Below are positions 10,740 through 54,202 of a DNA stretch of 64,000 nt, piece after piece; positions within the stretch are counted from its first letter, which is position 1; every line of letters begins with the position of its first letter. The stretch is from Catenulispora acidiphila DSM 44928. Lineage in GTDB: Bacteria > Actinomycetota > Actinomycetes > Streptomycetales > Catenulisporaceae. Location of the stretch: contig NC_013131.1 in NCBI RefSeq assembly GCF_000024025.1, forward strand, positions 8,598,229 to 8,662,228, in the 5' to 3' direction. A program made the position numbers and the translations under genes. A model generated the notes under the pieces. That model saw only the letters and a list, made by a program, of their open reading frames with translations, searched no databases and was not told the DNA's origin.

Positions 10740-12224
10740 TCAGACGGTGGTGGCGTCCGCCGCGACCTTGCCCTGCGCGGGAAGGGCAGCGTCGGAAGCC
10801 TTAGCGTTCCGGACGAAGAGCACCGCCACGGGGACGGCGGCCATTCCGATGAGCCCACAGACCAACAGCGCCTGGTGGAATCCACCGGTGAGCGCGTCTG
10901 TCGGGTTGTGGCCCTGACCCAGCAGGGTGCCGAGCCGCGAGGCCGCCACCGTGGACGCGATGGCGATGCCGACCGCTCCGCCGAGCTGCTGGGAGGAGTC
11001 GATGAGTCCGGAGGCGATGCCGGTGTCGCGCTCCTTGACACCGACCAGGGCTCCGATCGACACCGGGATGAACACCCAGGTGACCGCGCCGGTCAAGAAG
11101 AACGGACCGGCGAGGTTCGCCCAGAAGCTGCCGTCGACCGGCGCCTGGGTCGCCCACAGGATCCCGGAGCTGGTCAGCGCCAGGCCGGCGGCCATCACCA
11201 CCCGCACCGACAGCTTGTTGACCAGGACCTGGGACGGTCCGGCCATCACCACCCCGGTCATGCCGACGGTCAGCCAGGCCAGGCCGGTCGTCATCGCCGA
11301 GTAATGGAGCACCTGCTGCATGTACAGCGTGCCGATGAAGATGTAGCCGTAGAAGCTGGCTCCGAGCATGAAGCCGACCGCGTTGGACCCGGCCAGGGTG
11401 CTGAGCCGGAACAAGCGCAGCGGCAGCAGGGGCGTCGCCGACCTGGACTCGATGACCACGAACGCGATCAGCAGGACCGCCGCGACCACGAGCTCGGTCA
11501 CGGTCCGGGTGGACGTCCATCCCTTGATCGGCGCCTGCGTGACCGCGTAGACCGCGAGCACCGAAGCGGCGGTCACGGTCACCGCGCCGAGCGGGTCGTA
11601 GCTGCGCGGCGCGCCCACCAGCCTGCTCTCCGGCACCAGCCGCATGGTCAGCAGCAGCGCGATCCCGCCGATGACCACGTTCAGGTAGAAGATGTACTGC
11701 CAGCCGGCGTACCGGGTGAGCAGACCGCCGGCGAGCACGCCGAACGTCGCGCCACTGGCTCCGACCGCACCCCAGATGCCCAGCGCCTTGTTGCGCTCGG
11801 GACCCTCGGGGAACATGTTCGTCACGATGGACAAAGCCGCCGGCAGCACTGCCGCCGCGCCCAAGCCCTGGACACCGCGCATCAGGATCAGGAACGTGGC
11901 GTTGGTCGCCAGCGCGGCACACAGCGAGGCCAGGCTGAAGACCACGAGCCCGGCCATGAACATCCGGCGCCGGCCCAGCAGGTCGGCCATGCGGCCGCCG
12001 AGCAGCAGGAAGCCGCCGAAGGTGATCGCGTACGCCGTCACGACCCACTGCAGGTCCGTCTGGGCGAAGTGCAGCTTGGTGCCGATCGTGGGCAGGGCCA
12101 CGTTCACGATCAGCATGTCGACCGCGGTCATGAAGTAGGCCACGCCCAGCAGCGAGAACGCCCGCCACGGGTGTGGCGACGTCCCGCCGCGGATCTCGGG
12201 CAGGCTTTCGCTGGACACGCTCAT
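10740..12224 (-). CDS. MFS drug exporter, DHA2 (14-TM) family
   Basis: A 494-residue membrane exporter. The start ATG at 12224 has GGAGGT about 8 bases upstream and is preferred to the GTG at 12233. Signatures are motif A GGRMADLLGRRRMF between TM2 and TM3, the TM1 phrase DMLIVNVALPTIG, and motif C GASGATFGVLAGG, all typical of H+-antiporter drug exporters of the EmrB/QacA class. Length fits 14 helices. No adjacent regulator gene is present; it may export a product or substrate of the neighbouring oxidoreductases (inference). Confidence 0.92.
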   Translation of the reverse strand: MSVSSESLPEIRGGTSPHPWRAFSLLGVAYFMTAVDMLIVNVALPTIGTKLHFAQTDLQWVVTAYAITFGGFLLLGGRMADLLGRRRMFMAGLVVFSLASLCAALATNATFLILMRGVQGLGAAAVLPAALSIVTNMFPEGPERNKALGIWGAVGASGATFGVLAGGLLTRYAGWQYIFYLNVVIGGIALLLTMRLVPESRLVGAPRSYDPLGAVTVTAASVLAVYAVTQAPIKGWTSTRTVTELVVAAVLLIAFVVIESRSATPLLPLRLFRLSTLAGSNAVGFMLGASFYGYIFIGTLYMQQVLHYSAMTTGLAWLTVGMTGVVMAGPSQVLVNKLSVRVVMAAGLALTSSGILWATQAPVDGSFWANLAGPFFLTGAVTWVFIPVSIGALVGVKERDTGIASGLIDSSQQLGGAVGIAIASTVAASRLGTLLGQGHNPTDALTGGFHQALLVCGLIGMAAVPVAVLFVRNAKASDAALPAQGKVAADATTV

Positions 12225-46538: not shown

Positions 46539-46991
46539 TCAAGCATTAGCCACGCATACCGCTAGCAGTGACAATCCATAGAACATAATTGCGACATGGA
46601 GGATCACCCACAAACTATGCAGCCGGATGCGATGCAGCCAGGGAAAGGCGCGGTAATGATCCGCTCGAGCCTGCACCAATCTCTGATCGCTACCCAAGAT
46701 CCCAAGCTCTACGAGATCCTGGGTCAAAGCGCGCGCCTGCGACAGGTGGTAAGCAGCCCGCTCGTAGTACTTCGATACAGCCACTGCACCATACAGGCCC
46801 GCCAGCATGATGAAAATGCACAAGGGGATGACGTATAGCGAGAAGTGCTGTTGCGCGATCAGAGCGCTCAGGGCGGCTGTGATGACAATCAACAGGTTGG
46901 TCAATGCCGAACGCTGAGTCTCGCACTGGCGCAGTTGCTCTCGATGTTCCTTCCAGTAGGCGCGTACCGCCTCATCTGAGATCCCTGCCAC
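46539..46991 (-). CDS. Multi-TM membrane protein, SLATT-like (possible effector)
   Basis: A 150-residue protein from the GTG at 46991, which has GAGGGG 9 bases upstream (a TTG at 47018 would leave 6 bases to the divergent gene). Layout: charged amphipathic N-terminal helix (WKEHREQLRQCETQRSAL), two adjacent TM helices at about 29-48 and 52-72, a helical cytoplasmic loop, and a third TM helix near the C-terminus. This resembles SLATT-type membrane effectors of conflict systems; the match is by layout, not by a firm motif. It is divergent from a DUF4062 gene in a lower-GC islet. Confidence 0.6.
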   Translation of the reverse strand: MAGISDEAVRAYWKEHREQLRQCETQRSALTNLLIVITAALSALIAQQHFSLYVIPLCIFIMLAGLYGAVAVSKYYERAAYHLSQARALTQDLVELGILGSDQRLVQARADHYRAFPWLHRIRLHSLWVILHVAIMFYGLSLLAVCVANA

Positions 46992-47081
46992 TAGCCCCTG
47001 CCCCTCACCCGCACTCAAGATAGAATGTGCGAGAACCAGTCTAGTTCACCGGAAAACCCCTACCAGCGGAGACGGCGTAGC

Positions 47082-48203
47082 GTGAAGATCTTCATCAGCA
47101 GCGCACGAAAGGGTCTGGAGAAAGAGCGCGACTCGCTTCCCGGCTTGATCACTGCGCTGGGTCATACACCAGTACACTTCGAGGACTTCTCAGCCCAGTC
47201 CACGCCCAGTCGAGAGGCATGTCTGGCTGCCCTGGATTCGGCGGATGTTTGCCTGCTCCTGTTGGGCCCGAACTACGGCCACATTTTCCCGGAGACTGGA
47301 CAGTCTGCCACCCATGACGAATGGATTCACGCCCAGGTCAAGGGGATTCCGCGGCTCGTTTTTCGCAAGGCCGGGGTGAAGCTCGAGCCCAAGCAGCACG
47401 AGTTCGCCCAAACCGTGGAGGCATACGCCACAGGCGTATTCCGGACTACCTTCGAGGACACCCCAGATCTCCAGATCAAGATTGCCCAAGCGCTGCGCGA
47501 GTTGGGCTCGAAGCCGTCCCCCCTTGAATTCAAGAGGTTGACTCAGCCGCTGGCAATAAGCTGGACTTCGGCGGAAAATGGAGCGAATTCCCCTCTTAGT
47601 GACCGCGGAGCTCTCCTCGAAACTCACGTCGCACCCGTGGATCACTCGGGATACTCTGCTCGCGAAATGGAGTCGTTGATCAATTCGATGCAGAACCGCG
47701 TTCGCGCGACCCACTACATCCAGAACGACGTCGCGCTTAGCCTCTCCCGGTCAAAGGATCATGCGGTCGTCAGAATTGAGGACAGTGATCGTCCGGCCTG
47801 GGACAAACCCAAGGCCGGAAGGCTTCTCGAAGTTCGGCTATACCAGACTGGTCAGATCTCAATCAGAGCCACGCTCCCAAGAGACCGGATAGGATCAATT
47901 CTGGATCGTAAGGCGCTAACCCAGCAGATCGCTGAAATGCTTCGACTTACGGGAGCCTTGGGCATCATCGAGCAGGGGCATGTAGCGGTAGCAGTTGGAG
48001 TGTTGCCAGAGATGACCACCAGCGTCGACACCTTTGATCCAAACCACCCGCGGTCCAGTGCCCAGTTCATGCGCTTCGGCCAGTCGCCTGACATGGTACG
48101 GATCGAGCCGGACGAATCGGTCAACCTCACAGCCTTGGGGGTCGGAGCAGGCGAAGTGGCTGGCAATCTCTCTCAAGCACTGTTTACTCAGCTCACGATG
48201 TAG
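47082..48203 (+). CDS. DUF4062 (TIR-like) domain protein with unknown C-terminal half
   Basis: A 373-residue soluble protein from the GTG at 47082 with GGAG upstream; an ATG at 47025 adds 19 residues. Residues 1-95 show the DUF4062 pattern: VKIFISSARKGLEKERDSLP, then SADVCLLLLGPNYG and a THDEW segment with a conserved glutamate (E80) before GIPRLVF. DUF4062 is related to TIR-fold domains and found with NTPase sensors of conflict systems. The remaining 230 residues are not recognised. Codon use is less GC-rich than the neighbours, which suggests acquisition by transfer. Confidence 0.75.
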   Translation: MKIFISSARKGLEKERDSLPGLITALGHTPVHFEDFSAQSTPSREACLAALDSADVCLLLLGPNYGHIFPETGQSATHDEWIHAQVKGIPRLVFRKAGVKLEPKQHEFAQTVEAYATGVFRTTFEDTPDLQIKIAQALRELGSKPSPLEFKRLTQPLAISWTSAENGANSPLSDRGALLETHVAPVDHSGYSAREMESLINSMQNRVRATHYIQNDVALSLSRSKDHAVVRIEDSDRPAWDKPKAGRLLEVRLYQTGQISIRATLPRDRIGSILDRKALTQQIAEMLRLTGALGIIEQGHVAVAVGVLPEMTTSVDTFDPNHPRSSAQFMRFGQSPDMVRIEPDESVNLTALGVGAGEVAGNLSQALFTQLTM

Positions 48204-52183: not shown

Positions 52184-54202
52184 GTGGACAACCTTCGCTC
52201 GGCAACACGCTGGCGGTCCGGTACGGCCGCCCGGTTCGCGGCCCTGGTGGCCGCGTCCGCGTTGGTGTGGGGCGGCGTCACGAGCGCTGCTTCGGCCAGC
52301 TCGATCGCCTCCGCCTCCACCACCGTTTCGCACTCCGCGTCCACCTCAGCCTCGACCACGACCACGACCACGACCGTGACCGCGACCAAGACCGGCGCCG
52401 CTGCGGACTACGTCCACTCCTGCACCGCCCCGACGCGCCCCGGCCAGATGTCGTGTCTGGCGCTGCGCCGTACCGACGTCCGGGAGCATCCGGCATCGGC
52501 CGGCCTGGCCGTCTCCGGCTACGGTCCGTCCGACCTCCTGAGCGCCTACAACCTGCCGGGCGGCGGGTCGGGCCAGACCGTCGGCATCGTCGACGCGCAG
52601 GACGACCCGAACGCCGAGAGCGATCTGGCGGCGTACCGGTCCAACTACGGCCTGCCGGCGTGCACCACGGCCAACGGCTGCTTCAAGAAGGTCGACGAGA
52701 ACGGCGGGCGGAACTACCCCACGCCGGACACCGGCTGGGCCGGGGAGATCTCCCTGGACCTGGACATGGTCTCGGCGGTCTGCCCGGCGTGCCACATCGT
52801 GCTGGTCGAGGCCGCCTCGGCGAACATGTCGGACCTCGGTGCCGGGGTGAACCAGGCGGTGGCTCAGGGTGCGAAGTTCGTGTCCAACAGCTATGGCGGT
52901 TCCGAGGACTCCTCGGACACCTCCTCGGACAGCGCCTACTTCAACCACCCGGGCGTGGCCATCACTGCCAGCACCGGTGACTCCGCCTACGGCGCGGAGT
53001 ACCCGGCGACGTCGCAGTACGTGACGGCGGTCGGCGGCACCTCGCTGAACCGCGGCGGCGGCACGCGCGGCTGGAGCGAGTCGGTCTGGTTCACCAACTC
53101 CACGGAGGGCACCGGCTCAGGGTGCTCCTCCTACGACCCGAAGCCGTCCTGGCAGCACGACACCGGCTGCTCGCGGCGGATGGAGGCGGACGTCTCGGCG
53201 GTCGCCGACCCGGCCACCGGCGTCGCGGTCTACCAGACCTACGGCGGCAACGGCTGGTCGGTGTACGGCGGCACCTCGGCGTCGTCCCCGATCATCGCCT
53301 CGACGTGGGCCCTGGCCGGCGCGCCGAACCCGGGCGACCACGCGGCGCAGTACCCGTACAGCCACACCGGCAGCTTCAACGACGTGACCAGCGGCCGCAA
53401 CGGCAGCTGCTCCCCGGCGTACTTCTGCACCGCCGGCGCCGGCTACGACGGCCCGACCGGCTGGGGCACGCCGAACGGCACCAGCGGCTTCAGCGCGGGC
53501 ACGGCCGCCGAGACGGTGTCGGTCACGAACCCGGGGAACCAGAGTTCGGCGGTCGGTTCCAAGGCGTCCCTGCAGATCTCCGGCTCGGACTCGGCGGGCA
53601 AGTCGCTGACCTACTCCGCCACCGGTCTGCCGGACGGGCTGTCGATCAGCAGCACCGGTCTCATCACCGGGAGCCCGACCACCGCCGGGACCTTCTCGGT
53701 GACGGTGACGGCTTCTTCGGGCACCGCCACCGGATCGACCAGCTTCAGCTGGACGGTCAGCCCGGCAGGCGGCGAGACCGTGTCGGTGCGGAACCCGGGG
53801 AATCAGAGCTCGACGGCCGGAACCCCGGCGTCGTTGCAGATCTCCGCGGCAGACTCGGCGGACAATCCGCTGACCTACTCCGCCACCGGTCTGCCGAGCG
53901 GACTGGCGATCAGCAGCACCGGTCTGATCTCCGGGACTCCGAGCGCCGCCGGGACCTCCTCGGTGACGGTGACCGCGTCCTCGGGCACGGCCACCGGCTC
54001 CACCACCTTCACCTGGACAGTCACCGGTTCCGGAGGCGGCGGCTGCACCGGGCTCACGCCGTGGAGCGCGAGCACGTCGTACGTGCCGGGCGACGTGGTG
54101 GCGTACAACGGCGACAAGTACACCTCCACCTGGTACTCGACCGGAGCCACCCCGGGCGCGCCGGCCTCGTGGGCGGTGTGGCAGGACAACGGGACCTGCT
54201 GA
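52184..54202 (+). CDS. Secreted S53 (sedolisin) peptidase with two Ig domains and a chitin-binding module
   Basis: A 672-residue exoenzyme; GTG start after AAAGGAG. A signal peptide (about 1-37) is followed by a Ser/Thr stretch. The S53 catalytic residues are E187 and D191 (GWAGEISLDLDMV), the oxyanion aspartate D265 and nucleophile S364 (GGTSASSPI). The usual propeptide of about 150 residues is missing or very short. Two nearly identical putative Ig domains follow (442-524, 530-612), then a CBM5/12-type module (WSASTSYVPGDVVAYNGDKY) that binds chitin. It acts on proteins in a chitin-containing setting (inference). Confidence 0.9.
   Translation: MDNLRSATRWRSGTAARFAALVAASALVWGGVTSAASASSIASASTTVSHSASTSASTTTTTTTVTATKTGAAADYVHSCTAPTRPGQMSCLALRRTDVREHPASAGLAVSGYGPSDLLSAYNLPGGGSGQTVGIVDAQDDPNAESDLAAYRSNYGLPACTTANGCFKKVDENGGRNYPTPDTGWAGEISLDLDMVSAVCPACHIVLVEAASANMSDLGAGVNQAVAQGAKFVSNSYGGSEDSSDTSSDSAYFNHPGVAITASTGDSAYGAEYPATSQYVTAVGGTSLNRGGGTRGWSESVWFTNSTEGTGSGCSSYDPKPSWQHDTGCSRRMEADVSAVADPATGVAVYQTYGGNGWSVYGGTSASSPIIASTWALAGAPNPGDHAAQYPYSHTGSFNDVTSGRNGSCSPAYFCTAGAGYDGPTGWGTPNGTSGFSAGTAAETVSVTNPGNQSSAVGSKASLQISGSDSAGKSLTYSATGLPDGLSISSTGLITGSPTTAGTFSVTVTASSGTATGSTSFSWTVSPAGGETVSVRNPGNQSSTAGTPASLQISAADSADNPLTYSATGLPSGLAISSTGLISGTPSAAGTSSVTVTASSGTATGSTTFTWTVTGSGGGGCTGLTPWSASTSYVPGDVVAYNGDKYTSTWYSTGATPGAPASWAVWQDNGTC
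53513..54020 (+). repeat. Tandem Ig-domain coding repeat within the S53 peptidase gene
   Basis: Two units of about 265 bases encode Ig domains sharing long identical stretches such as LTYSATGLP and TVTASSGTATGST. The high identity points to recent duplication or gene conversion. Confidence 0.85.

Follow-up and report, generated by a model that had tools for sequence, protein, structure and literature searches.

What two divergent genes at positions 46539 to 48203 might do together is the question raised by the window, the 64,000-nucleotide stretch of Catenulispora acidiphila DSM 44928 (contig NC_013131.1, positions 8,598,229 to 8,662,228) that was analysed. An earlier note had proposed an undescribed defence or conflict module, made of a soluble DUF4062 protein that senses or signals and a SLATT-like membrane protein that kills or arrests the cell. 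The pair is a conserved, horizontally moving two-gene module, and we hold it to be a functional unit with little doubt. Its role is probably defence, most likely against phages. Whether the membrane protein would act downstream of the TIR-type enzyme of its partner is an evenly balanced matter. The reading as a whole, a mobile conflict cassette in which the C-terminal domain (CTD) would sense, the enzyme would fire and the membrane protein would execute, has about an equal chance of being right or wrong.

The soluble protein (373 residues; coding sequence with stop 47082..48203, forward strand) and the membrane protein (150 residues; 46539..46991 with stop, reverse strand) are both encoded as the note had described. 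Chance open reading frames were rejected, since 198 relatives of the former and 286 of the latter were found at E≤1e-3. The N-terminal domain (residues 1–145; 47082..47516, forward) matches Pfam DUF4062 (PF13271) over model positions 1–82 of 82, with an E-value of 1.8e-22 and 79.8 bits against a cut-off of 24.7, and its predicted structure is an alpha/beta fold of the TIR/NDT type. The family profile also matches the chain of the Swarozyc protein KpSwz (PDB codes 10wc, 11cq and 11cv; E 2.2e-6, residues 2–141). His78-Asp79-Glu80 (47313..47321, forward) is the putative catalytic-helix motif, in which His78 and Glu80 are invariant in 70 of 70 aligned rows. Among 27 DUF4062 hits from other genomes, which were retrieved with a profile of this same protein family, every one has Glu in the Glu80 column, and 25 have Glu in the His78 column as well. 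The position of Glu80, eight residues before a Gly, is presumably the place of the Glu in SARM1 and NDT. These comparisons indicate that the N-terminal domain is likely an NAD-cleaving TIR-like enzyme.

The membrane protein is tied to such an enzyme by its neighbourhood. GTDB contigs were scanned for the membrane protein and yielded 25 loci of its gene, 23 of them evaluable (L025 and L028 end at the gene), and a TIR-superfamily gene lies within 1.5 kb of the membrane gene in all 23. In 17 loci the partner is a DUF4062-CTD gene, divergent and close in 16 and split off by a transposase gene in one (L026). In the other six (L027 and L029–L033) it is a canonical TIR_2 protein of another build. The TIR_2 gene lies 3 bp past the stop of the membrane gene in L031 and lies before it elsewhere, at 83 bp in L030 (TIR and TPR, with an NB-ARC match below the cut-off), at 0.6 kb in L032 and 1.5 kb in L029 (TIR with NB-ARC), with one frame between in both, at 1.4 kb in L027 (TIR, AAA and TPR) and at about 1 kb in L033. 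In genome G183 (L114, 8189–10967; C1:1350258–1351728) the membrane gene stands between two same-strand TIR_2 proteins, one of which is fused to EAD1. Chance is a poor explanation of the TIR_2 proximity, because these genomes contain only 1–16 TIR_2 matches each, but through shared descent the loci are not independent of one another. The distances among membrane proteins follow those among TIR domains, with r 0.894 for 21 loci and none of 2000 permutations as high, in a comparison made with no species-tree control. Since the accompanying part varies (CTD, NB-ARC, AAA or TPR) while the TIR-type enzyme stays, the membrane protein appears to be tied to the TIR product or to the activated TIR fold, and its constant partner is likely the TIR-type enzyme. 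The locus sets used here come from separate scans that may share genomes (L019 and L071, for example, are identical over 1500 bases), so they are not summed.

The membrane protein has the three hydrophobic segments and the charged N-terminal helix that the note had read from its translation. Hydropathy windows above 1.6 span residues 27–48, 43–75 and 124–150, and the AlphaFold2 model, with a mean predicted local distance difference test score of 96, contains helices 6–47, 52–95, 103–115 and 124–149, arranged as a hairpin of long helices followed by a short helix and a terminal hydrophobic helix. Across 51 relatives 28 residues are invariant. Eighteen of these lie outside the hydrophobic stretches (residues 1–26 or 76–123), and most of the 18 are charged or polar, which fits a site for docking or ligand binding, one that would face the cytosol. 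SLATT proteins are characterized by a transmembrane (TM) hairpin with long cytosolic helices. A hairpin with long helices is predicted here (helices 6–47 and 52–95, hydrophobic at 27–48 and 43–75), and the third hydrophobic helix is extra. In three libraries SLATT models rank first or nearly so among the weak matches: at E≤1, NCBIfam SLATT_3 matches 39 of the 51 relatives, Pfam SLATT_3 and SLATT_5 match 20 and 15 (best E 3.5e-5), and PADLOC RTasSLATT matches six. UniRef gives the name SLATT to one relative (P0217), which nevertheless lacks a Pfam match at E≤0.01. The window protein itself is below the cut-offs, with 14.9 bits against 55 for NCBIfam SLATT_4 and no Pfam SLATT model at E≤1. An hhalign comparison of the membrane family with SLATT_3, from a very small alignment of six rows, gave a probability of 0.7, compared to 1.5 and 1.5 for two controls. 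DUF1304 was also considered as an identity and was rejected (18.9 bits, cut-off 26.9).

The CTD (residues 175–373; 47604..48200, forward), which the note had been unable to assign, matches no Pfam family under E 0.01 among the 18 members scanned, and an ordinary metabolic enzyme was rejected on that basis. No PDB chain covers it in the profile search (E up to 0.1) that found KpSwz. The CTD changes faster than the enzyme domain, its identity being the lower in all 2415 pairs of a 70-row alignment (means of 0.447 and 0.682). It is carried by 20 of the 391 genomes of the order and by 4 of the 396 genomes in a phylum sample, the window genome included in both. Eight of the 20 contain the DUF4062-CTD gene with an adjoining divergent membrane gene (the DUF4062 gene is broken in G008 and G649), five have the CTD fused to PNP_UDP_1, one has it after a region weakly matching TCAD9 (33.6 bits, cut-off 40), five show partial CTD matches only, and one (G673) has it without a detectable DUF4062 domain, at two sites near the ends of one contig. 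The loci with PNP_UDP_1-CTD proteins of actinomycetes, as identified with Pfam, are L036, L075, L076, L078, L081 and L086, also L064 and L065; beyond the five genomes, a PNP-CTD protein is present in G112. PNP_UDP_1 enzymes break N-glycosidic bonds, as the TIR-like domain would. Being joined to different enzymes, the CTD fits an exchangeable regulator. It looks like a candidate sensor domain, less conserved than the enzyme domain, found on TIR-like and PNP-type enzymes and unnamed in Pfam. The soluble protein thus probably holds both the sensor, at its C-terminus, and the enzyme, at its N-terminus.

Several details of the CTD loci may be added. The two G673 copies (L074, C1:13630–14250, and L087, C1:7905817–7906437) are perhaps located in terminal inverted repeats. 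A 652-residue frame in L082 (106–2061, forward) ends in a CTD, with a match to TCAD9 (ternary complex associated domain) below the cut-off upstream. That the membrane gene accompanies CTD proteins in general was rejected, since profile searches at E 0.01 gave no match to it in L064, L065, L101 and L104–L111 (5–20 kb each). In L064 an unlike divergent membrane gene (11406–11951) starts beside the PNP-CTD gene, and it aligns with the window membrane family no better than a control.

Comparison of flanks shows the pair to be mobile. In genomes G012 and G008 none of the genes flanking it is shared with the window, and in G009 and G004 the GntR and hydroxylase genes of the window are present and the pair is absent. 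On the Streptomyces plasmid pADI95-16a both genes are open. On pSMg1-1, which has the same gene order, the DUF4062 domain is lost together with the first part of the membrane gene, and the Streptomyces goshikiensis plasmid resembles pSMg1-1 as judged by match coordinates. L103 (3798–4681) and L100 (7458–9119) represent one plasmid locus in two states, an open pair and a remnant that has lost the enzyme domain and the membrane-gene front. The DUF4062 gene is uninterrupted in 14 of the 17 membrane-gene loci that have it and broken in L009, L019 and L026; the identical L019 and L071 have a stop inside the DUF4062 domain and an open membrane gene. A phage-borne module was rejected, since the DUF4062 protein was unmatched in 50,697 phage records and neither protein was found in viral contigs. 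Ten neighbour proteins, eight from five loci together with L101 and L114, were picked as conflict-like and scanned, so they show occurrence rather than frequency. The pair is located between restriction-type DNA methylase genes in L023 and near a Trypco2 and a trypsin-NACHT protein in L011, a DUF6791-ThiF protein in L018 and an HNH protein in L013. The chosen proteins of L022 and L101 and one of those of L023 gave no match. On the Rhodococcus opacus plasmid pROB01 (L101, 3963–5880), the DUF4062-CTD gene has next to it a divergent gene for a nuclease-looking protein of 330 residues and an Abi-like gene, both judged by eye; neither matched in Pfam.

In the mechanism that we propose, the CTD would sense an infection cue and activate the N-terminal TIR-like domain, which would cleave NAD+ or a related nucleotide at its N-glycosidic bond. 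The conserved polar helices of the membrane protein may bind the product of that cleavage, an ADP-ribose derivative, or else the activated enzyme, upon which the protein would permeabilise or depolarise the membrane, and the infected cell would stop or die.

Several observations weigh against this mechanism. Glu97 of KpSwz (numbering derived from the 15-C construct) falls on His78 and not on Glu80 in the ungapped HMMER alignment. The TIR gene is 1.0–1.5 kb away in three of the six TIR_2 cases, and the L033 frame, which also matches Maf and PfkB, may be chimeric. The membrane-protein distances correlate with those of the CTD (r 0.920 for 21 loci, which none of 2000 permutations reached) no less closely than with those of the TIR domain; because all parts travel together within the DUF4062 clade, co-inheritance does not single out the enzyme. 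A SLATT identity is unproven from sequence comparison, and the membrane protein is SLATT-like only. The window copy sits among metabolic genes, outside any defence island. Finally, the DUF4062-CTD gene occurs without the membrane gene in G853, G908 (only on short contigs) and G999, at four loci of these three genomes (in L091 the domains are in different frames), and on pROB01, with no profile match to the membrane family within 5–14 kb, and the soluble protein may work alone there.

This last point leads to the best-surviving alternative, a Swarozyc-like single protein in which the DUF4062-CTD protein would sense the phage and deplete NAD+ by itself, and the membrane protein would be an anchor, a scaffold or a second effector dispensable for the core reaction. 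KpSwz expressed alone protected Escherichia coli, according to a 2026 preprint (PMC13174449). However, the retention of the pair in 17 of the 23 membrane-gene loci, and of another TIR protein in the other six, is hard to explain without a tie to TIR, and no likeness of the CTD to the auxiliary domain of KpSwz was detected, as the profile match stops at residue 141. We regard this alternative as rather unlikely.

A toxin with its immunity protein or antitoxin, in which the membrane protein would restrain the NADase, inactive at the membrane, rather than act downstream of it, would suit the tight divergent arrangement and the joint loss of parts of both genes on pSMg1-1 and, by coordinates, on the S. 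goshikiensis plasmid. It would also suit the open membrane gene beside the interrupted DUF4062 gene of L019 and L071, as a harmless restrainer could persist. The survival of DUF4062-CTD genes without the membrane gene argues against it, and its pairing, upstream or downstream, with very different TIR builds is explained at least equally well by a membrane protein that receives a common product; a toxin pair of this kind is improbable. A non-defence role, as a nucleotide-salvage or stress-signalling N-glycosidase (DNPH1/MilB/NDT-like) with a membrane companion, is very improbable given the patchy distribution of the CTD, the mobile low-GC (guanine plus cytosine) islet with its repeated decay, the restriction or conflict genes adjoining the pair in some of the chosen loci, and the pairing of the membrane gene with TIR proteins bearing NB-ARC, AAA, TPR or EAD1 parts.

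The proposed cassette, with a downstream membrane protein, can be compared to published systems. DUF4062 NADases (Swarozyc) act in antiphage defence, with abortive infection reported for one of them, and the preprint authors note that some DUF4062 members share operons with other enzymes and that their role may extend beyond NAD+ depletion (PMC13174449); the word "membrane" is absent from the main text of that preprint. SLATT has been predicted as an ADP-ribose-regulated membrane effector beside TIR genes (PMC9503650), and TIR-SLATT neighbourhoods have been predicted in firmicute phages (PMC9503650) and GAP1-N1 systems (PMC7159879). In view of these papers, the "undescribed" of the earlier note was too strong. 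A TIR enzyme with a small membrane partner is already predicted in print, and the DUF4062-CTD/membrane pair, for which no title was found in searches of the SLATT and TIR literature, is a new version of it.

As in Swarozyc, an N-terminal TIR-like domain of the DUF4062 family precedes an auxiliary domain at the C-terminus (the solved KpSwz chain has 326 residues). In contrast to KpSwz from Klebsiella, whose auxiliary domain binds the phage portal, the actinomycete protein has a CTD unmatched to that domain, a His at the Glu97 position with the invariant Glu two residues further, and a dedicated membrane partner gene. As in TIR-SLATT pairs, a TIR-superfamily enzyme adjoins a small membrane protein, and the present membrane family also pairs with canonical TIR_2; here, however, the enzyme is DUF4062 rather than canonical TIR, a new CTD takes the place of a nucleoside triphosphatase, and the window membrane protein is under all SLATT cut-offs with three hydrophobic stretches instead of the two TM segments of SLATT. 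The proposed logic is that of Thoeris, in which a TIR product (ThsB makes an ADP-ribose signal) activates a separate effector (ThsA executes), but here a single protein would combine the sensor with the TIR enzyme, and the candidate effector is a membrane protein that lacks a SIR2-SLOG or macro domain. The PNP_UDP_1-CTD proteins share the CTD and an N-terminal enzyme, although this enzyme is of an unrelated family and the membrane family of the window was not found beside them.

It is possible, as a tentative proposal, that the pair is the first DUF4062 second-messenger system, in which a new, exchangeable CTD would trigger a glycohydrolase whose NAD-derived product would open an executioner from a new SLATT-like family, common to several unrelated actinomycete TIR immune proteins. 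The two-gene cassette offers a small testable case of DUF4062 doing more than NAD+ depletion, and with the membrane family, which also occurs close to canonical TIR proteins that have other sensors, the predicted gating of SLATT-type proteins by TIR products could be tested directly.

The two genes are separated by a divergent intergenic region of 90 bp from start codon to start codon (46992..47081). The corresponding spacing, measured between profile positions, is 81–94 bp in 23 of 25 stretches; the exceptions are L026, with the transposase gene in the gap, and L100, mis-measured in this way, whose annotated genes are 90 bp apart. The GTG start at 47082 gives 373 residues, in agreement with the 371–376 residues of most among 120 DUF4062-protein relatives listed, and the GTG start at 46991 gives 150 residues, the most frequent length among 120 membrane-protein relatives listed. 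Immediately upstream of GTG 47082 is a conserved 18-nt block (47064..47081, forward; 23-row consensus CAGTGGAGACACCGTAGC). It is retained where it is non-coding, as in L011 and L013–L015, which have an in-frame stop a few codons 5' of the position matching this GTG, and in L012, which has a 2-base gap. The block is probably a ribosome-binding or promoter sequence. Together with an upstream GAACC it resembles what we take to be a promoter of the extracytoplasmic function (ECF) type, and it may be only a ribosome-binding sequence.

The pair forms a lower-GC islet, as the note had claimed. The two frames, with 57% and 58% GC, are the lowest of 45 frames in the window (next 65%; window 68.9%), and their GC at third codon positions (GC3) is 67% in both, compared to at least 80% in 32 of the other 43 frames. 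The contrast in codon use that the note saw on both sides is weaker on the left, where the GntR gene has a GC3 of 69%. The GC of the pair is below that of its flanks in 16 of 16 related loci, by a mean of 5 points (range 0.2–11); window frames and flanking genes were called by a composition heuristic. What the note had named as evidence against a module turned out the other way, with homologues adjacent, a C-terminal half without a match to any known enzyme, and GC below average, and the two-gene module that it proposed is borne out as conserved and mobile, with a TIR-type enzyme beside its membrane partner.

The neighbours of the pair in the window are genes for a GntR regulator, a fatty-acid hydroxylase, an aldehyde dehydrogenase and a DUF6008 protein. 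Further along, a 672-residue frame (52184–54202, forward) contains two Ig-like (He_PIG) segments and ends in a CBM_5_12 module; its front resembles a sedolisin by eye and has no Pfam match at E 0.01.
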